64,000 nucleotides of DNA. Source: Candidatus Babelota bacterium. Lineage in GTDB: Bacteria; Babelota; Babeliae; Babelales; Vermiphilaceae. Numbering within the stretch: position 1 is the stretch's first letter; the number at the start of each line of letters is the position of its first letter. The stretch covers positions 19,541 to 83,540 of the forward strand of contig JAJCZC010000035.1 of the NCBI GenBank assembly GCA_029262575.1, given 5' to 3'. The notes beneath the pieces were generated by a model, which worked only from the letters and a program-made list of their open reading frames with translations, made no database searches and was not told where the DNA came from. A program made the position numbers and the translations under genes. Below, piece by piece: positions 13,958 to 44,683 of this stretch.

Positions 13958-14713
13958 ATGCAACTAAAAGAGCTAACTAATTATTTGAATTCGTATCTTG
14001 AAATCGATAAAGTTAACGACACCTGTTTTAACGGGCTACAAATTGAAGGCAAACAGGAGATCAAAAAAATCGCATTTGCCGTTGATGCCTGCCTTGATAG
14101 TTTTGAACACGCCATTGCAACACAAGCGGATATACTTATCGTTCACCATGGACAATTTTGGGAATTTACAAATCCATCAATCACCACATGGAACAAAAAA
14201 AGAATTGCAAAACTGCTTGAACATAATATTTCGCTTTATGCAGCACATTTGCCTCTTGATCGCCATAAAGAAGTTGGCAACAATGCACAACTCATTAAAC
14301 TGTTAGATGGCAACATAGATCGCCCTTTCTATATCAAAAAAGGAACCAACATTGGTTGGGTTGGCAAACTAAATAAAAAACAAAAACTAACCGACATTGC
14401 AAACACGCTCAACAAAAAACTTGAAACCGAATGTATTGTGGTGCCATTTGGCGACCAAACAATTGAAACTATAAGTGTTGTTTCTGGCGGTGGTGGCTAT
14501 GGCGGTTTTTGGAATAGCTTAAAAGAAGATGTTGATCTTTACCTCACCGGCGATTCAGCCGATATTTTCCAGACAGCAAAAGATGCCCAAATTAATGTTA
14601 TCTTTGCTGGGCATTATGCCACTGAAACGGTTGGCCTGAAAGCATTGGCGCAACATTTGCATGAACAATTTAATGTTGAAACTGAATTCATCAGTCTACC
14701 AACCGGACTATGA
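13958..14713 (+). CDS. Nif3-like dinuclear metal centre hexameric protein
   Basis: A 251-residue protein with all the metal ligands of the Nif3/YbgI family: H63 and H64 (VHHGQFW), D101 (HLPLDRH), and H219 and E223 (GHYATET). The length matches the single-domain bacterial form. The fold forms hexameric rings. A GTP cyclohydrolase-like role (FolE2/Nif3) has been suggested for some members, but the function is not settled. The start has a good ribosome binding site (AAGGAT). It converges on and overlaps by 6 bases the Cys-rich gene on the other strand. Confidence 0.9.
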   Translation: MQLKELTNYLNSYLEIDKVNDTCFNGLQIEGKQEIKKIAFAVDACLDSFEHAIATQADILIVHHGQFWEFTNPSITTWNKKRIAKLLEHNISLYAAHLPLDRHKEVGNNAQLIKLLDGNIDRPFYIKKGTNIGWVGKLNKKQKLTDIANTLNKKLETECIVVPFGDQTIETISVVSGGGGYGGFWNSLKEDVDLYLTGDSADIFQTAKDAQINVIFAGHYATETVGLKALAQHLHEQFNVETEFISLPTGL

Positions 14714-15040
14714 ATCATCTGCCAATTGCTGCGGGACACAACATGGACAACAATAATGTGTTAACATGCAACAATTATTGTTTTGATATTTTTTATTCAC
14801 TTCATAAGGATCGACATATCTATTGTGTAAACAATTTTTTTCTCGTGGATCACGATTCGGTGCACCGCAAAAGTTTGTGCAAATCAATGGACAAGAAACA
14901 ATCGATGCAAGTATCTGCATGAGATAATTAGGCCTACTTGAAACTAAGATTGTTTCTTTTGTGACATCTTGTAATTCCTGATCAGACGCTAAAGCACCTG
15001 AAAACATAAACAAAAATAAAGGCATGCATTGTTTATACAT
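14708..15040 (-). CDS. Small exported Cys-rich protein (CCPCC family, copy 2)
   Basis: A 110-residue protein started at MYKQCMP after GGGTGG. An in-frame ATG three codons upstream overlaps that site. It has a signal peptide to about residue 18, then a mature chain with a C-rich end reading LTHYCCPCCVPQQL. It is paralogous to the gene 33 bases upstream (15074-15370), sharing QALA/QILASIVSCP and the CCPCC tail. The cysteines suggest disulfides, metal binding or host lipid attachment; which one is unknown. No known family. Confidence 0.7.
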   Translation of the reverse strand: MYKQCMPLFLFMFSGALASDQELQDVTKETILVSSRPNYLMQILASIVSCPLICTNFCGAPNRDPREKNCLHNRYVDPYEVNKKYQNNNCCMLTHYCCPCCVPQQLADDS

Positions 15041-15073
15041 GTTTGCCACCCTTTCAGAAAAAAATCAATCACC

Positions 15074-15370
15074 CTATCGCAACTGTTGTGGCACGCAACA
15101 CGGACAACAATAATGCGTCAATGCACAGCAATCATTCAGATCATATGGCTCGGCCACATCATATGGGGCAACATAAGTATTATGCAATGGATTATGCTCA
15201 CGCACATCTTTATCTGGCCGGCAAAAGGCTGTAAAGCTAATTATGGGGCACGAAATAATCGCTGCGAGCGCCTGCATTAAACAATTTGGTTGCTCTGGCT
15301 GTTGCTCACCACCATCGTTTGCAAACATTATATTACAAGTTAAAAACAAAGGTATTATATATTTTTTCAT
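15074..15370 (-). CDS. Small exported Cys-rich protein (CCPCC family, copy 1)
   Basis: A 98-residue protein started at MKKYIIPL after a strong AAGGAG site. The longer reading upstream lacks one. It has a signal peptide to about residue 17, then an acidic Gln/Glu stretch, then IISCPIISFTAFC, VREHNPLHNTYVAPYDV and the terminal LTHYCCPCCVPQQL. It is first of two tandem paralogues. The conserved spacing of the last six cysteines is the main clue to function. Confidence 0.7.
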   Translation of the reverse strand: MKKYIIPLFLTCNIMFANDGGEQQPEQPNCLMQALAAIISCPIISFTAFCRPDKDVREHNPLHNTYVAPYDVAEPYDLNDCCALTHYCCPCCVPQQLR

Positions 15371-15522
15371 GCCTACTCCTTGCATATGTTTTATGAACAC
15401 CGCTCACACAATAACAGCTTATTTTTTTTGTTGTCAAGGGGTAATGAAAATACGAAGCTTGACTTGCATAATCTCTAAACGTAGAATGCAAGTAATTAAA
15501 AAAACAAAAAAGGAGCTCTTCA

Positions 15523-28072: not shown

Positions 28073-28750
28073 CTACTGTATAGGACAGATCTTATCTTTC
28101 CATGTAGGAACGTTTTGTTCATGATGCTCTAAGATGTTTAATATTTTATAAAGCTCATCTTTGGTTGCCTTACATTGCATTGCATATGCTTCAGATTCAT
28201 CTGCATTAAAATAAGTTAATGCATGATCCGAGGGCTTTTCAGATTCAACAAACCATCTTTGCCACCATGAGGTAAGACTAACTGAGGTTTGCATAACATT
28301 AGCTCCATTTTGGCACAATGCTTCAACTGCATCAATATTTCCTGCTAAAATTGCATTTTCAAGCGGTAAGTGCACTGTATGAAATCCAGTAGATCCTTGT
28401 ATGACAACTTTTTGACCTACTGTCTTTTGCTGCATCGTAGAAACCAACACTTGATGTGTTTTATTTGGCGTGGCCCCCATATTAATAAGATCTTTTATAA
28501 AGTTTTTTGTGTTTTGATATTTACCTCTTGGTGAGGTTGCAACTAAGTTGAGCAACATTGTGCCATAAGGCTGGCTATCATCAAAGGTTATGCCATCAGA
28601 ATATTCTTTAAAAGCTTGATGATTATCATCACATATCGATTCATACAATAAAACACAATATTGAGGCAAAACCTTATTGTGGCTTGCTGCATGCATACAT
28701 GAGAAAAAAGAAATTACACAAAAAATTAATATTATTTTTTTTGATATCAT
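28073..28750 (-). CDS. Exported ankyrin-type protein ending in a CaaX box (CPIQ)
   Basis: A 225-residue protein started at MISKKII after GGAGAG. It has a signal peptide to about residue 21 (CMHAAS). The body includes ankyrin-like helical pairs: LNLVATSPRGK...FIKDLINMGATPN, and LPLENAILAGNIDAVEALCQNGANV. The very last residues are K-I-C-P-I-Q. A Cys at position -4 followed by P-I-Q fits the CaaX rule for host protein prenylation (Q favouring farnesyl). It is encoded next to a second ankyrin protein with the same kind of ending. Prenylation is an inference; the substrate or host partner is unknown. Confidence 0.75.
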   Translation of the reverse strand: MISKKIILIFCVISFFSCMHAASHNKVLPQYCVLLYESICDDNHQAFKEYSDGITFDDSQPYGTMLLNLVATSPRGKYQNTKNFIKDLINMGATPNKTHQVLVSTMQQKTVGQKVVIQGSTGFHTVHLPLENAILAGNIDAVEALCQNGANVMQTSVSLTSWWQRWFVESEKPSDHALTYFNADESEAYAMQCKATKDELYKILNILEHHEQNVPTWKDKICPIQ

Positions 28751-28831
28751 ATCGCTCTCCAAGTCAGCTAAAAACAGTTCAGGCTAGTTTAATCATCTTG
28801 CTTTATGTTGTAAAGCATTGAAAAACAATAT

Positions 28832-29503
28832 TTATTGCACTATACACATTTGCATGCCAGATGCTTTTAAATCGGCATCAAACTCTTCATTTTCTTTCAT
28901 CTTTTCTTCTAATAATTCAATGATTGTGTCCAACTGTTGTTCTGATGCTGGACATACACACTGGCCACCTTGCTTTCTATGTTTATATAACTTTGCATGT
29001 TCTAGCGCGCTTTCACCAAGCCACTTTGCAATCATGGAAGGATTATAATTCAATGAGCTTTTTTCTGGGTCAACATTATAAGAAAGTAAAGTTTTCACCG
29101 CAACAACATTGCCCACATGAATACTTATATCCAATGGCAACAACCCTGAAACAACCTTACATTCTCGCTTAAATTTACAACTCGCAAATAAAAAATTAAT
29201 TGAATTTTCAATAACGGAATAAACATCTGGGGCTTTATGCGGACTAACGCCAGCATCAATTATTTTTTTGATAAAATAAGAAGTATGCTGAGATTTATTC
29301 AGACATGCATAACCTAAGAGGTTGGTTATGTATTTATCATGCGCAAATGTAATGGTTGTGCATTGCGGCAAAGATTGCATCGAACTATCAAACTGCTCTT
29401 TATTTCCTTCTTTAATTGCCTTAACTAGCTTTGTGACGATCTGTTGACCATCTGAAGACAACGCAAAAAAACTCACAAATAAAAAACTTAGAACAATTCT
29501 CAT
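28832..29503 (-). CDS. Exported ankyrin-type protein ending in a CaaX box (CIVQ)
   Basis: A 223-residue protein started at MRIVLSF, where AGAGGTG precedes and the signal peptide begins; the longer reading upstream adds an unlikely leader. Ankyrin-like segments are LLGYACLNKSQHTSYFIKKIIDAGVSPHKA and LPLDISIHVGNVVAVKTLLSYNVDP. It ends M-Q-M-C-I-V-Q, an excellent CaaX box (two aliphatic residues then Q). Paralogous in design to the gene at 28073. Probably secreted and membrane-targeted in a eukaryotic host. Confidence 0.78.
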   Translation of the reverse strand: MRIVLSFLFVSFFALSSDGQQIVTKLVKAIKEGNKEQFDSSMQSLPQCTTITFAHDKYITNLLGYACLNKSQHTSYFIKKIIDAGVSPHKAPDVYSVIENSINFLFASCKFKRECKVVSGLLPLDISIHVGNVVAVKTLLSYNVDPEKSSLNYNPSMIAKWLGESALEHAKLYKHRKQGGQCVCPASEQQLDTIIELLEEKMKENEEFDADLKASGMQMCIVQ

Positions 29504-29612
29504 TAAACACCTCTGGCAATTATCGTAATGCATATAAAATATGTTCGTCCAAGTGTAAGCAATTCCTAAAAAATTGCAAAATGCCTTCCTTTCTTCTGGC
29601 GATATTTTCAAT

Positions 29613-29688: not shown

Positions 29689-30690
29689 ATGAAAAAAACA
29701 ATATTATTTATGGCAATATTTGCTATTTTTACGTTTTTTAGCCTTATACACAGTGCATCAAGCTCAAAGAATGTAGGGCTATCAGAATGGCAACGACAAA
29801 CATTAAGTCGCTTAATGTCTCAAAAAAGCATACTCGAAAACAAGGGGCATAAGACAACCAATATTATTCAAGAACTAGCGGAGGAGCCCTTATTGCGCTT
29901 CACTGACACAAAACCCACATCGATAAAAAAAGGCATCAAAAAGTGGGTATCTTCATTCAAAAGAAGAAAAGACTCTAATCATGCTAGATTTAATACTATA
30001 GAGCCCGAAAAAAGGGCAACAATTTTAATAAATTTTATAGGAAGCTTAATCTATGAAAACACAGATTGCAATGAAGTGATAAAAGCTATGAGTATCAGAG
30101 TAGCGAACATTATTAAAACAGAAATGATCAAAGAGAGTAACGTTGGTGCAGACATAGATATACTCCGAAATCTCATCTTATCTAGTCAAGCTGAGAAAAA
30201 AAACAAAATAGCCCAGTATGTGAGCCCATATCTTGGAAACTCTATACAGGACTTAGCAATGACAGATAACATGCTCTTTCATAATTTTGACTACAGCGCA
30301 TTAAAACTCATCCAGCAAAAACTATCTTCAATAAAAAATTTTAATCTTGAGATCGCTCAAAAAACAAACTTAACATCTATAACCTCTATTTATTTAGGCG
30401 AAAATGCTATAATGCATATTGAATCCGGCGCTTTTAATGGATTTAATAAAACCATTAGACTGCGATTAAACAATAACAAACTTCACGGTCAACTTGATTC
30501 AAAAGCATTTGAAGGACTCTATTCTCTCACGTTTCTCGATCTAAAAGATAACAACATAACTGGTGTAATCACTAAAGAGTTTAACAATCTTAAAAACTTA
30601 AAATTCATTGATTTGAGGAATAATAATATTACAGAGAATGAGCAAACGCGAATCAAGAACGAATTGCCAAACATCAAAATCATATTTTGA
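29689..30690 (+). CDS. Exported leucine-rich repeat protein
   Basis: A 333-residue protein with a signal peptide (to about residue 22) followed by ASSSKN. The N-terminal 200 residues are helical and unrecognised. The C-terminal part (about 225-333) has four to five leucine-rich repeats: LTSITSIYLGENAIMHI, IRLRLNNNKLHGQL, LTFLDLKDNNITGVI and LKFIDLRNNNIT. LRR proteins bind other proteins; with export this suggests a host-interaction role. Own promoter at 29613. Confidence 0.8.
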   Translation: MKKTILFMAIFAIFTFFSLIHSASSSKNVGLSEWQRQTLSRLMSQKSILENKGHKTTNIIQELAEEPLLRFTDTKPTSIKKGIKKWVSSFKRRKDSNHARFNTIEPEKRATILINFIGSLIYENTDCNEVIKAMSIRVANIIKTEMIKESNVGADIDILRNLILSSQAEKKNKIAQYVSPYLGNSIQDLAMTDNMLFHNFDYSALKLIQQKLSSIKNFNLEIAQKTNLTSITSIYLGENAIMHIESGAFNGFNKTIRLRLNNNKLHGQLDSKAFEGLYSLTFLDLKDNNITGVITKEFNNLKNLKFIDLRNNNITENEQTRIKNELPNIKIIF

Positions 30691-32396: not shown

Positions 32397-32431
32397 TTGG
32401 AGGCGATTAACTTTGTGTTATACTCAAAATA
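32397..32431 (+). promoter_or_regulatory. Leaderless-type promoter of the FAD oxidoreductase gene
   Basis: TTGGAG (32397-32402) and TATACT (32419-32424) are 16 bases apart, and the ATG follows only 6 bases after the -10 box. Transcription would start at or next to the start codon, and no ribosome binding site is present. Confidence 0.5.
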
Positions 32432-33432
32432 TGCAAAAAACTCCTAAAAAACAGCTGGACTACCTCATTATCGGCCAAGGACTAGCTGGCTCAATTCTTT
32501 CATACACGTTGCTCAAAATGGGCAAAAAAGTGGCTATAATCAATAGGTTTAACCCAAAATCTGCCTCTTATATCGCTAGCGGCATATTTAGCCCTATAGC
32601 AGGGCAAAGAATAGCTAAAATCTGGCAAGCCGATGAGATATTCCCACAGATGTCCACATTTTATAAAACATTAGAAAAAGATCTGAACTGCTCATTTTTT
32701 CATCAAATGCCTTATATCAAACTACTTATTAATGATGATCTTAAAAAATTTGCCCAACGACGATTTGACGATCCAAAATATGCATCATTCATCAAAAGAA
32801 TTGAACACAGTGTAAAAGGAAAAAAAGTTGATGCAATTGAAATTCAACACACTGGCTGGATGAACACCAATGTATTTTTAGATACGTATCGCGCATTTTT
32901 AAAAACACAGGATGCCTATATTGAAGATTGGTTTGACACTGATCAACTAGTGATGCGCGAAAACGAAATTCACTATAAAAATATAAACGCACACAAGATC
33001 ATCTTCGCCAATGGACTGCAAGCAACGCAAAATCCTTTTTTTGATCATCATAGATTTATCCCTACAAAAGGCGAATTGTTAACGGTCAAAATGAGTGCTC
33101 CGCAAAGCGCAATTATCAATGGCAATGCATTTGTTCTGCCAATTGGCGATAACCTGTTTCATGTTGGTGCAACTTTTGCACGTAGTTTTGAAAATGCACT
33201 GCCAACCCAACAGGGCAAAGAATGGCTATGTACTGAACTTGAAAAGCTTATCGACATCCCTTATGAAATTATTAATCATAAAGCTGGCATTCGCCCGACA
33301 ACACCTGGCCATCGGCCAATTGTTGAATGGCATGAACAACATCAGAATGTTGGCATCTTCACCGGTTTTGGCGCAAAAGGCGTGAGCTATATTCCTTATT
33401 GTGCACAACAATTATTAAGCATAAAAATATAA
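32431..33432 (+). CDS. FAD-dependent oxidoreductase (DAO family)
   Basis: A 333-residue flavoprotein. The N-terminal dinucleotide fold YLIIGQGLAGSILSYTLLKMGKKV carries GxGxxG. Later motifs are ANGLQATQNPFF, FVLPIGDNLFHVGATF and the C-terminal KAGIRPTTPGHRPIVE...VGIFTGFGAKGVSYIP, which is typical of glycine-oxidase or MnmC-like DAO enzymes. Substrate unknown. Start chosen at the ATG after the -10 box (leaderless). Cytoplasmic. Confidence 0.85.
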   Translation: MQKTPKKQLDYLIIGQGLAGSILSYTLLKMGKKVAIINRFNPKSASYIASGIFSPIAGQRIAKIWQADEIFPQMSTFYKTLEKDLNCSFFHQMPYIKLLINDDLKKFAQRRFDDPKYASFIKRIEHSVKGKKVDAIEIQHTGWMNTNVFLDTYRAFLKTQDAYIEDWFDTDQLVMRENEIHYKNINAHKIIFANGLQATQNPFFDHHRFIPTKGELLTVKMSAPQSAIINGNAFVLPIGDNLFHVGATFARSFENALPTQQGKEWLCTELEKLIDIPYEIINHKAGIRPTTPGHRPIVEWHEQHQNVGIFTGFGAKGVSYIPYCAQQLLSIKI

Positions 33433-33508
33433 GCAAGTTGCATGAAGTAAAAATATCATTAAACTCATACGCAGCTTATTAAACAATTACCCTATAAAGG
33501 ATTACATC

Positions 33509-33967
33509 ATGAAAAAGTTCTTCATGTTGGCAACATTGATGATCACATCTTCAGCATTTTGCTCATCGCAACAACAACAAAAACTTCCAAACGCTGAACA
33601 ATTTAAAAAACTTATTGTTAATGCAAAATCGATTGAACAACAATTGAATCAACTAACACAGGGTTCACAAAAGAATGAAGCTAACGCAACCCTAGAAACA
33701 ATACAAAGCACCTTGCGTGAAGCATATATAAATTCGGATAGCACAAATATGGAACTAACATATAACAAGATCCTCGAGCAACAAAAATATGAAGCACGAA
33801 TGAAACAACTTATCATCTCGTTCACGAAAAACGCAATTGAGAGGGGCGATAAACTAGAAGTGCTTGTCAAAAACAGCGATGCATTGCAAAGTGCTGCCGA
33901 TCAGTTTAAAAGTAACCGTCTACTAAAAAAACCTGATCCCGTCTGCACAGCATGTGGACTACTCTAA
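33509..33967 (+). CDS. Exported R-SNARE-like (synaptobrevin/Ykt6-like) protein with terminal CaaX
   Basis: A 152-residue protein with site AAAGGAT and a signal peptide (about 1-19). A helical region leads to residues about 95-140, which match the C-terminal half of an R-SNARE coiled coil: ERGDKLEVLVKNSDALQSAADQF. Aligned to VAMP2 it has R112 at the zero layer, L116, L119, L126, A130 and F133 at the following layers, and the identical D-A-L-Q pattern. It ends V-C-T-A-C-G-L-L: C149 heads a CaaX box (L favouring geranylgeranyl), with another Cys (C146) three residues upstream, like lipidated Ykt6. It has no C-terminal membrane helix. It probably mimics host SNAREs in vesicle traffic; this is inference. 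Confidence 0.8.
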   Translation: MKKFFMLATLMITSSAFCSSQQQQKLPNAEQFKKLIVNAKSIEQQLNQLTQGSQKNEANATLETIQSTLREAYINSDSTNMELTYNKILEQQKYEARMKQLIISFTKNAIERGDKLEVLVKNSDALQSAADQFKSNRLLKKPDPVCTACGLL

Positions 33968-33985
33968 GTTTACACTAAAAAAATA

Positions 33986-34005
33986 GGCCCTCGATATGGA
34001 GGGCC
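33986..34005. terminator. Stem-loop between convergent genes
   Basis: A perfect GGCCCTC/GAGGGCC stem with loop GATATG, 18 bases after the SNARE-like gene. The following T-run is short. Confidence 0.55.
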
Positions 34006-34026
34006 TTCCTAACTACTTAGAATTTA

Positions 34027-34906
34027 CTAATTATTCTGATTCAGCCATTCAGCAAACCTTTTTTTTAATACTGCCAATTTTTGCACTTTTTTCTCCCGCA
34101 TCAAATCGAGTTCTTTTATCTTTGCCTCCGTCTGAGCAATGTTATTGTCGAAATCTCTTTTGACGGCGACCTTCTTTGCGGCCCTCTTTGCAGCAGCCTC
34201 CTCTTTGACGGCGGCCTTCTTTGCGGCCCTCTTTGCCTTGGCAGCAGCCTCCTCTCTTGCAGGCTTTTCTTTCTTTTGCTTTTGTTCTTGCACAAGATCC
34301 TCGAAACAATCATCCATAGATGCAAGCGATTTGCTAGTAAATTCAATGAGCCCATCTATTGCAGCTTTATCAATTTGGCCCGCATTAAACCCTGATGAGA
34401 CTAAATTATCTATGAGCTCAATTACGTGTGGTTTAAGTTCATCAATGAATGGTATTTTTGCATCTTTAGGCAAAGCAAGCAAGCCAATAAGCAACATTTT
34501 GCGCACATAACAAAATTGATTTGCCGATATAATTGGGAAAGAATTGCCCTTTTTTAAATTCTGATAAAAAATAAGTTGAGACTTTAGAGCACATCTAGAA
34601 AAATTTTTCACCTCCGTCAACACATCTCCATACTTATAGAGCTCTTCTTTGCTATTCTGATAAAGCTTTATTTTTTCATCCAATAAATCTGCTTTTTCTG
34701 TGCAAAGAGTAGACTTCCATTTATCAAAACCCGGAGCTTTTTTAAGCGCTAACAAACAATCTATTGGGCTGCCTTGGTTCACGCCTGAATCCATACAGGA
34801 TGCAATGTATTTTTTTTCGCTGATCACTTAGGTCATAGTTCGCGGCAAAATTTGCCAAACTCGAAATTAATACCCCGACAAACAAAAAAACATTCACTTT
34901 CTTCAT
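34027..34906 (-). CDS. Exported coiled-coil protein, frameshifted at a run of eight A's
   Basis: The body (266 codons, 34027-34827) has no good start. Upstream, an ATG at 34906 with AAAGGATTTGG encodes a fine signal peptide (MKKVNVFLFVGVLISSLANF) but in another frame. The two frames meet at a run of eight A's (34809-34816 on the coding strand). One A fewer would join them. The body ends with an Ala/Lys-rich repeat (about 190-235, AAAKAKRAAKKAAVK type) and a coiled coil. Either the gene is broken, phase-variable, rescued by slippage, or there is a sequencing error. Function unknown. Confidence 0.65.
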
Positions 34907-35012
34907 AGCCAAATCCTTTCAATCAAAAAGTGTATACGATAAACTGGCTCAAAGTATGAAAAATTCAGGATCAATTGTCAAAAAAAATAGATCTAAAACT
35001 GGAGTGATCATT

Positions 35013-36410
35013 GTGAAAAGCTATACAACATCATTATTCATTTTTCATCGCGATTTGCGCTTGCACGATAATACGGCCTTAATAGCTGCATGCAAACAAT
35101 CAGACGCCATTATTCCATGCTTTATATTCACACCCACGCAAGTTGGCAATGAAAATGAGTATAAAAGCGATAACGCCATTCAATTTATGATCGAATCTCT
35201 CAAAGATTTGCAACAACAAATCCAAAAAAAGGGCGGTAGGCTATACTTTTTTTATGGCGCAACCGATGAAATAGTTAAAAAATTGATTAAAGCTGAAAAA
35301 ATTGACGCAATCTTTAGCAATAAAGATTATACCCCATTTGCCCAAAAACGAGATAAAGCAATTGCAAAAATCTGCAAACAACAGGGCGTAGGTTTTCACG
35401 AATTTGATGATACATTGTTGAATGCACCGGGCAAAGTATTCAACAAGTCAGGAGAGCCTTATAAAGTGTTCACGCCATTCTGGAAGGCATCTATAAGGAT
35501 TCCTGTGGCGAAAGATCAAAAGTTTGCCTATAAAAACTTCTACACTAAACGGATTAAACTTGCGCAAGAGGACACCACCATCTTCAAGAAGGTCCTTAAA
35601 CCCCTTCACCCTGAGCCTGTTGAACGGGTATATGTGCATGGCGGCAGAAACAATGCACTCAAAATCATACGTAAACTCAAAGATTTCAAAACCTACCAAA
35701 AAACGCACAATACTCCCGCAATTAATACCACATTGCTTTCGGCGCACAATAAGTTTGGCACCATTTCAATCAGGGAACTATATTGGCATATGCGCAATTC
35801 CCTTGGGCAATCCGGCCCGCAGGGCTTAGTTCGCCAACTTTATTGGCGCGATTTTTACTATCATATTGCATACTTTTTTCCACACGTTTTTGGCCATGCA
35901 TTTCAAGAAAAATACGACAAACTCAAATGGAGTTTATCCAAAAAAAACTTCCTGCAATGGTGCAATGGTACAACCGGTTTTCCAATTATTGATGCAGGCA
36001 TGCGTCAACTTAATGAAACTGGCTGGATGCACAATCGTGTGCGCATGATTGTTGCATCATTTTTGGTCAAAGATCTGCATATTAATTGGCTCTGGGGCGA
36101 AAAGTATTTTGCGCAAAAGCTAGTTGATTATGATCCTTGTGTGAACAATGGCAATTGGCAATGGGCAGCTTCCACAGGATGTGATGCACAGCCATATTTT
36201 AGGATATTCAACCCATGGCTTCAGCAAAAAAAGTTTGACCCTGATTGCATTTATATCAAACGCTGGATGCCCGAACTCAAAAATGTAGATAATAAAGTCA
36301 TTCACAATTGGGAAAAAGAAAATAGCCCCGAGGTTGATTATCCTCGCCCGATGGTGGATCACAAGGCGGAAAAAGAGGTCGCGATCAAAATGTTTAAAAA
36401 CGCAAACTAA
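35013..36410 (+). CDS. phrB: Deoxyribodipyrimidine photolyase
   Basis: A 465-residue protein started at a GTG preceded by GGAG, giving KSYTTSLFIFHRDLRLHDNTAL, the usual photolyase N-terminus. The antenna domain is followed by the FAD-binding core: YWRDFYYHIAY, FPIIDAGMRQLNETGWMHNRVRMIVASFL, DYDPCVNNGNWQWAASTGCDAQPYFRIFNP. It repairs pyrimidine dimers using blue light. The length is normal for class I enzymes. This is notable for a supposed intracellular parasite, since light exposure implies a free or amoeba-associated stage. Confidence 0.93.
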   Translation: MKSYTTSLFIFHRDLRLHDNTALIAACKQSDAIIPCFIFTPTQVGNENEYKSDNAIQFMIESLKDLQQQIQKKGGRLYFFYGATDEIVKKLIKAEKIDAIFSNKDYTPFAQKRDKAIAKICKQQGVGFHEFDDTLLNAPGKVFNKSGEPYKVFTPFWKASIRIPVAKDQKFAYKNFYTKRIKLAQEDTTIFKKVLKPLHPEPVERVYVHGGRNNALKIIRKLKDFKTYQKTHNTPAINTTLLSAHNKFGTISIRELYWHMRNSLGQSGPQGLVRQLYWRDFYYHIAYFFPHVFGHAFQEKYDKLKWSLSKKNFLQWCNGTTGFPIIDAGMRQLNETGWMHNRVRMIVASFLVKDLHINWLWGEKYFAQKLVDYDPCVNNGNWQWAASTGCDAQPYFRIFNPWLQQKKFDPDCIYIKRWMPELKNVDNKVIHNWEKENSPEVDYPRPMVDHKAEKEVAIKMFKNAN

Positions 36411-43996: not shown

Positions 43997-44683
43997 CTAC
44001 TGCAAAAGACATCCGCCCTCATCTTGGTCAGCTTTCCAAGCCTTAAAATTTATCGCAACACCCAATTCATTTTGAGGGTTTTTTTTAACAACAGCCTCTA
44101 TAAACGACTTGATATCGTTTTTTTCTGCATAACCTTTCACAAGCCTTGGATCCAATTCCTTAAACTTTGGCTCATCGGTTTCAAAAAAAAACGACTTAAA
44201 CATAAATGGTTGATGATCTAAAATCACAACATGGGTGCAACACTCAAGTTTTGGGCGCGATCCCCATAGGCTCAACATAACCTTGGGACCTAAATAAACA
44301 ATATGCAAAGCAACTGCAAGCATTTTTTCCTTCTGATCGATATGCTTGGACTTAGCCTCTGAAAACAAGCTATTAATTGCTTCGCCAACTCTTAATCGTA
44401 TTTTTTCGTATGTTTGGGTGAAATCAGAACTAGTTAAACTTTTTATAAAATTTTCATTAAAATGGCTCCGAACGCTTTTATCACAAGCACAACCTAAAAC
44501 ACATAATGCATGTTTTTTATCTTGCGATATAAACTGGGTATCATAAAAATGACATTCCTCCATTTTGCCATTCAATACAAAAAAAGTGTTCAACTTTTTT
44601 TGATCATCAATAGACTGCTCATCATTTGCAGACAACACATTTGAACAAACGAAGATTAAAGCAAAACAAAATAATCTTTTCAT
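43997..44683 (-). CDS. Exported protein ending in a CaaX box (CLLQ)
   Basis: A 228-residue protein with a signal peptide (about 1-18). The ending G-G-C-L-L-Q is a strong CaaX box. The central region HIVYLGPKVMLSLWGSRPKL...HVVILDHQPF weakly recalls the GDSRAVL...DHKP part of PP2C phosphatases, but the catalytic aspartates are not visible, so at most it is a degenerate relative. Its last codons lie in DNA shared with the mutY upstream region, which there still reads C-L-L-Q-stop. It is probably a secreted host-membrane protein. Confidence 0.7.
   Translation of the reverse strand: MKRLFCFALIFVCSNVLSANDEQSIDDQKKLNTFFVLNGKMEECHFYDTQFISQDKKHALCVLGCACDKSVRSHFNENFIKSLTSSDFTQTYEKIRLRVGEAINSLFSEAKSKHIDQKEKMLAVALHIVYLGPKVMLSLWGSRPKLECCTHVVILDHQPFMFKSFFFETDEPKFKELDPRLVKGYAEKNDIKSFIEAVVKKNPQNELGVAINFKAWKADQDEGGCLLQ

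Follow-up and report, generated by a model that had tools for sequence, protein, structure and literature searches.

Analysis of the window, which is the whole stretch of 64,000 nucleotides presented above, revealed a gene for an exported-type protein with an R-SNARE-like core and a C-terminal CaaX box. The SNARE likeness of the core exceeds chance, and the observation made in the first-pass annotation holds. The genome belongs to Dependentiae (TM6, Babelota), a phylum with four isolates described so far, whose members are reported to live strictly inside protist cells (PMC12172432, in excerpt). How Dependentiae control their protist hosts is little known, and a predicted mimic of a host vesicle-fusion protein would probably locate to host membranes and disturb the fusion of vesicles there. 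With modest confidence, the protein is read as a secreted, host-prenylated R-SNARE mimic that would compete as a decoy with host R-SNAREs (VAMP7/VAMP8/Ykt6 type) for Q-SNAREs.

The reading frame and its R-SNARE-like core

The features of the gene, its flanks and three further CaaX-bearing reading frames of the window are given in Table 1.

Table 1. Features of the window discussed in the text, with positions counted from its first nucleotide
Feature	Position	Strand	Basis
ORF of 152 aa: predicted Sec signal, helical region, R-SNARE-like core, CaaX tail	33509..33967	+	sequence, Pfam, own profile
AAAGGA, Shine-Dalgarno-like, ahead of ATG	33496..33501	+	sequence
Predicted signal peptide region, residues 1-20, MKKFFMLATLMITSSAFCSS	33509..33568	+	sequence, crude hydrophobicity rule
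R-SNARE-like core, layers -4 (M98) to +6 (F133)	33800..33907	+	Pfam, PDB profiles
Zero-layer Arg112 codon	33842..33844	+	sequence
Tail C146-T-A-C149-G-L-L and stop: extra Cys and CaaX box CGLL	33944..33967	+	sequence
Conserved FAD oxidoreductase flanking the SNARE-like gene	32413-33432
Convergent low-complexity ORF, next past the SNARE-like gene	34027-34827	-
Photolyase beyond the low-complexity ORF	34956-36410
Signal-peptide-like ORF ending CPIQ	28073..28762	-	CaaX count
Signal-peptide-like ORF ending CIVQ; 24% identity to 28073-28762, distant relative	28832..29611	-	CaaX count
Signal-peptide-like ORF ending CLLQ; no Pfam family	43997..44683	-	CaaX count

The extent of the reading frame, Arg112 and the tail VCTACGLL were found in the sequence as first annotated, and the string E111-R112-x-x-K-L-x-x-L-x(4)-D-A-L-Q-x-x-A-x-Q-F133 is present, its residues matching VAMP2. 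The bacterial signal peptide that had been named stands as a signal-like start, but the call was made with a crude hydrophobicity rule of our own and not with a trained predictor. Cleavage would perhaps follow A16 or S20, and the predicted signal region showed no canonical lipobox before C18. The very C-terminus, CGLL, fits the C-x-aliphatic-X pattern of host-prenylated CaaX effectors and is presumably of the geranylgeranyl type by CaaX rules.

The Pfam Synaptobrevin model (PF00957), the family to which the first-pass annotation had likened the protein, does match residues 99-136 (E 2.8e-5), but its score of 24.3 bits does not reach the gathering cut-off of 26.4. A phmmer search of the PDB returned 14 rows at E <= 10. 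Ten of these were VAMP-type R-SNAREs and one was yeast Nyv1, with a best E of 0.17 among them; the other 3 were unrelated and included the top row, a fusion protein (E 0.059). As neither the Pfam match under the cut-off nor the weak phmmer rows were decisive alone, an R-SNARE profile was built from the R-SNARE stretches of 8 PDB chains. The window protein scored about 20.4-20.5 bits on this profile, a score that no shuffle attained, neither among 5,000 that preserved the hydrophobic pattern (best 12.2 bits) nor among 5,000 full ones (best 8.8 bits). It also ranked first in a background of 1.80 Mb and 10,390 frames, chosen blind to SNAREs except for the window and a stretch over a gene of Candidatus Chromulinivorax destructor; the Chromulinivorax protein ranked second (16.4 bits) and the third frame scored 10.1. 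Owing to the shuffles and the separation from the background, the match is taken as specific to R-SNAREs and not to coiled coils generally.

From layer -4 to layer +6 the window protein reads M I F A R L L S L A F and VAMP2 reads V M N V R L L A L A F, with the zero-layer Arg, an R-SNARE hallmark, found at R112. The Ile at layer -7 fits too, while 4 of the 16 layers hold residues that do not fit (Q at -6, E at -5, R at +7 and K at +8), so that the motif is degenerate at both ends and the full set from -7 to +8 is incomplete in the window protein. The alignment with synaptobrevin proposed for residues 95-140 therefore stands over layers -4 to +6 and fails at -6, -5, +7 and +8. Because of the unreached cut-off and the incomplete layer set, the protein was not filed as a formal Synaptobrevin member; if the mimic reading is right, it would nevertheless work like a member of the R-SNARE family. 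Over positions -14 to +21 the identity was 12/36 to VAMP2 and 11/36 to Ykt6, the closest for the window core alone. Apart from Synaptobrevin, a Pfam scan at E <= 1 gave just a chance-level RNase H match (0.17) and no longin domain. A structure model made from two sequences was uninformative (mean pLDDT 45.7), with the helix broken after residue 110.

Genomic setting and related proteins in the phylum

A search of a collection of 5.8 billion proteins with the window protein returned itself only. Among 51 genomes (50 besides its own), the two of the same genus gave no match to the protein, and neither of them gave a Synaptobrevin match; weak matches in 5 other genomes (E 0.005 to 0.15) were taken as chance after inspection of one of them, L004. 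The oxidoreductase and the photolyase are kept in both same-genus genomes, with other genes next to and between them and no R-SNARE-like gene as a neighbour. Kept flanks around variable contents indicate that the gene is lineage-specific and occupies a variable slot, as an effector gene would. A terminator-like hairpin with a T run (33985-34006, minus strand) lies between the convergent ends of the SNARE-like gene and the low-complexity ORF.

The phylum set comprised the window's genome (1.66 Mb, 41 contigs) and 100 others, with Chromulinivorax as G069. PF00957 matched at E <= 0.01 in 9 of these 101 genomes, once above the cut-off. That match, L009 in genome G029, is a protein of 133 residues with a signal-like start and a clear R-SNARE motif (PF00957 45.1-45.9 bits), and it matched VAMP8 in the PDB (E 4.8e-6). 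Its tail is YGCLACCFPMKKK, in which CLAC shares C-x-A-C with the CTAC of the window protein; this cysteine tail does not form a CaaX box, and that of the Chromulinivorax relative is without Cys. The contig of L009 carries densely packed bacterial-looking genes, including a PhoH-like ATPase by our own reading, which makes a stray protist contig unlikely. A protein search with L009 alone returned itself only, and a viral-contig search with L009 confirmed nothing; nor did a profile search of genome contigs with the two-protein alignment, from which records near the window's genome were perhaps excluded.

Two other reading frames were observed near the L009 gene. Two genes away, an ORF of 290 residues (L233:3464-4336, minus strand) ends in KCGIS, a CaaX box, and has a likely internal start and a likely signal sequence. 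An ORF of 105 residues (L233:6383-6700, plus strand) is signal-peptide-like and has a Cys-rich C-terminus, CVVSCCLCPC, after a short charged region; its product is possibly another membrane-tethered effector.

The Chromulinivorax protein (L010; 305 residues from a GTG start, 289 in the database) retains the stretch from layer -2 to layer +8, zero-layer Arg included. Its three metagenome relatives are 59-83% identical, and Arg-Gly stands at the zero layer in all four proteins. Over the C-terminal SNARE half, this group is invariant at 7 of the 11 layer columns and at 7 of the remaining 25. On the R-SNARE profile the four scored 19.7, 16.5, 8.2 and 6.1 bits, so that two of them would not stand alone. 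Loss of Arg112 in homologues, named beforehand as a sign against the mimic, was not seen, with Arg in 6/6 aligned motifs (window, L009, P0003-P0006); a seventh candidate, L011, has Asp there, on a match that is itself not significant.

Six further genomes of the phylum gave Synaptobrevin matches (L011 to L017) that were weak and were rejected. In L011 (G067) Asp stands at the zero layer, and shuffles attained its score (4/4,993 and 8/4,990); the frame (L011:1399-1962, minus strand) encodes an exported-type protein of 187 residues in which layers +2 to +8 are well preserved and a very Cys-rich tail follows (Pfam 23.6 bits). L012 (G085:C25) has an Ntox35-like fragment, below the cut-off of that family, and a Synaptobrevin-like stretch in which the zero-layer Arg is absent by our own reading. 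Its 15.7 bits on the R-SNARE profile nearly equal the 16.4 of the Chromulinivorax protein, which makes the latter weaker evidence than L009.

A profile of the three Dependentiae cores was compared with 177,635 PDB sequences. Of the 25 rows at E <= 1, the leading 23 were R-SNAREs or so named, with VAMP8 (3.5e-7), VAMP4 (8e-7) and Ykt6 (2e-6) as the best, and the last two were unrelated (E 0.21 and 0.99); the result is partly circular because the Synaptobrevin model had served to choose two of the cores. A search with the three cores gave a match at E <= 0.1 in 20 of the 101 genomes, with no further convincing member and a maximum of 17.3 bits outside the three source genomes. The Q-SNARE model PF05739 matched at E <= 0.01 in 3 of these genomes, with none above the cut-off (best 17.6 bits) and none convincing.

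PF00957 was also run on 50 genomes of other phyla and matched at E <= 0.01 in 4 of them, the best match being at 27.1 bits and thus above the cut-off. The frames that carry the four matches are 752 to 1,479 residues long, and two contain internal stops; the frames around the 27.1-bit match were not among the best 12 on the R-SNARE profile (12th 8.9 bits). A Pfam score of about 25 bits alone therefore proves little, and the case rests on the Arg at the zero layer, the fit of the layers, the shuffle tests and L009, which exceeds the cut-off.

Proposed action and comparison with known mimics

As a decoy, the protein would be exported by Sec and would then leave through the outer membrane with the aid of a type II-like system. 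Two secretins were matched above the cut-off in the window's genome, and these could serve pili instead. For Babela massiliensis, type II is described as the sole secretion system detected, with signal peptides predicted on 79 of 126 ankyrin proteins (PMC4378268). In the host cytosol, Cys149 would be prenylated by host GGTase-I and Cys146 perhaps acylated. Layers -4 to +6 of the membrane-anchored protein would then pair with host Qabc-SNAREs, Arg112 facing their three Gln. With charged residues at +7 and +8 and polar ones at -6 and -5, zippering towards the membrane would stay incomplete, and around the bacterium the decoy may block or divert fusion events of the endolysosomal or autophagic kind. 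Late endosomes and autophagosomes are the sites at which VAMP8 and Ykt6 work. Taken with the three-core profile, which lies nearest to VAMP8, VAMP4 and Ykt6, these sites suggest blocked lysosomal or autophagic delivery as the likeliest benefit to the bacterium; the window core alone is nearest to VAMP2 and Ykt6.

The Ykt6 tail consists of a Cys and a CaaX box (Cys-Cys-a-a-X type) and is of the farnesyl type. The two tail cysteines of the window protein, the place of Ykt6 among the best PDB matches of the three-core profile, and good layers from -4 to +6, which include most of the C-terminal half that drives zippering, would suit a fusion-competent Ykt6-like R-SNARE that is prenylated and acylated, pairs in trans with host Q-SNAREs and drives host vesicle fusion. 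This is nevertheless unlikely, given Arg and Lys at +7/+8, Gln and Glu at -6/-5 and a Pfam scan without a longin domain. Two Dependentiae isolates are moreover described in the host cytoplasm (PMC4378268, PMC6561590, both in excerpt), so that it is doubtful which membrane would fuse, and the bacterium-containing vacuole of the first-pass annotation is doubtful for the same reason. With its membrane-near layers charged, the protein is better read as a decoy than as a fusogen.

In vitro, short C-terminal VAMP2 fragments hold the Q-SNARE acceptor complex open and aid fusion. A positive factor of this kind, with a short R-SNARE stretch keeping the acceptor complex open for the host R-SNARE and speeding fusion, would agree with the Chromulinivorax relatives, which keep only the -2 to +8 half. 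It is very improbable for the window protein, which fits as far as -4 and is without +7/+8, the opposite of the VAMP2 fragment.

The proposed decoy resembles the R-SNAREs VAMP2, VAMP8, VAMP7 and Ykt6 in its zero-layer Arg, its E-R-G-x-K-L-like core and layers -4 to +6. Unlike the R-SNAREs of PF00957, it has neither a transmembrane helix past the core nor a longin domain, and it has a bacterial signal-like start. The Ykt6 likeness that had been claimed stands for the core and for the tail, where a Cys and a CaaX box follow and lipidation is predicted, but not for the longin domain; CGLL is, moreover, presumably of the geranylgeranyl type whereas Ykt6 is of the farnesyl type.

IncA and LegC proteins are membrane-inserted, unlike the window protein, which is R-SNARE-like and predicted to be lipid-anchored. 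Chlamydia IncA and Legionella LegC2/LegC3/LegC7 (YlfB, YlfA) are likewise bacterial coiled-coil proteins and are described as engaging host SNAREs (PMC7542358, PMC2265411), the LegC proteins as Q-SNARE-like (PMC7542358). Legionella LseA, compared here by its description, is also a bacterial SNARE mimic with a CaaX end, a Qc-SNARE with a C-terminal CAAX motif (PMC7542358); it is a Dot/Icm effector, whereas the window protein is R-type, has a Sec-like signal and comes from another phylum. The statement that known mimics do not carry a close VAMP core together with a CaaX box has to be tempered accordingly, with LseA as a precedent of the Qc type for SNARE plus CaaX. Bacterial SNARE mimicry is thus already known, the combination of SNARE and CAAX included (PMC7542358); what appears to be new, by the literature searches given below, is a predicted R-type mimic in Dependentiae, within a CaaX-bearing secretome. 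If true, it would be an R-SNARE mimic, whereas the Legionella SNARE mimics found described are Q-type (PMC7542358, in excerpt). Searches of the mostly open-access literature under the name Dependentiae, not under TM6 or Babelota alone, found no paper joining Dependentiae with CAAX, and for SNARE only a broad phylogeny paper. The main texts of the isolate papers PMC4378268 and PMC6561590 make no mention of SNARE, synaptobrevin, CAAX, prenylation or farnesylation.

C-terminal CaaX boxes in the genome

A Cys at position -4 was found in 5 of the 67 window ORFs, and a CaaX test was therefore made on 20 further stretches of the same genome. The motif C-x-[ILV]-X at the exact C-terminus was counted against its mean at shifted positions, with ORFs sharing the last 12 residues counted once. 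In the window's genome, 13 of 357 sampled ORFs had such an end against 1.53 per shifted position (p 8e-9); because the window itself had prompted the test, the count was repeated with the window left out and gave 8/289 against 1.26 (p 4.9e-5). A prenyl-type X together with a signal-peptide-like start was found in 9/357 against 0.34, with a maximum of 1 at any of 38 shifted positions, and in 5/289 against 0.29 with the window left out. The accepted X residues (Q, L, S, M, F, A, C) follow general prenylation rules, and the set was fixed after the boxes had been seen. Of the 13 boxes, CCIE and CAIE, whose proteins are likely cytosolic enzymes, fall to the X filter, and CSLL and CPIF then fall to the signal-peptide rule, leaving 9. 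Signal-like starts among accepted-X boxes (9/11 against 200/357 overall) were not significantly enriched (Fisher p 0.071). Signal-peptide-like ORFs with these ends, namely the three in Table 1 and others at L125, L128, L130 and L132 (CPIQ, CIVQ, CLLQ, CTIS, CNIQ, CNIL, CIIL, CAIL), had no Pfam match above the cut-off.

The Chromulinivorax genome showed 7 CaaX ends in 337 ORFs against 1.18 (p 0.00022; CVIS, CAIS, CVVS, CTIS), a p value that overstates independence because all 7 are mutually related ankyrin proteins. The box is kept among them, and the residues ahead of it differ. Those at L143, L144 and L145 mostly have signal-like starts and end in CVIS/CAIS/CVVS/CTIS. G040 gave 5/371 against 1.03 (p 0.004), and G024 gave 3/382 against 1.24 (p 0.13). 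In control loci of other phyla (68 of 80, the 12 Legionella loci being left out) the count was 3/302 against 0.66 (p 0.029), none with a prenyl-type X plus a signal-like start. A second control, almost wholly two genomes as the contigs from the other two were tiny, gave 0/173. The G024 count, the relatedness of the Chromulinivorax proteins and the excess in the first control speak against extending the claim to the whole phylum.

The enrichment suggests that the CGLL box is probably functional rather than accidental. It also weighs against an ordinary exported envelope coiled-coil protein whose SNARE likeness and CaaX-like end are coincidental, as do the 0/5,000 pattern-keeping shuffles, the clear separation from the 10,390 background frames and L009 above the Pfam cut-off. 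Such a coincidence is rather improbable, even though the protein is an orphan below that cut-off, its structure model is of low confidence and comparable Synaptobrevin scores are also seen in long frames from other bacteria.

A wider reading is put forward tentatively, with less confidence than the decoy: Dependentiae may run an effector programme through host prenylation, with many Sec-exported CaaX proteins, one of them a minimal lipid-anchored Ykt6-mimic R-SNARE. If this is true, the CaaX signature would flag likely effectors in otherwise orphan secretomes. A Legionella AnkB-type effector is described as anchored through host farnesylation of its CaaX end (PMC5506055). The window protein and the Chromulinivorax ankyrin proteins are like such effectors in their CaaX ends, for which prenylation is predicted, and unlike them in secretion route and phylum; the Chromulinivorax proteins look like AnkB-style farnesylated effectors. 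As the Chromulinivorax relative and the CaaX ankyrin proteins come from a cultured isolate, both ideas are testable in infected cells.

Other exported-type products were observed in the window. A leucine-rich-repeat protein with a signal-like start (29689-30690, plus strand), eukaryotic-like, is encoded near the SNARE-like gene, and two adjoining small exported-type ORFs (14708-15049 and 15074-15400, minus strand) have the common Cys-rich end THYCCPCCVPQQL.
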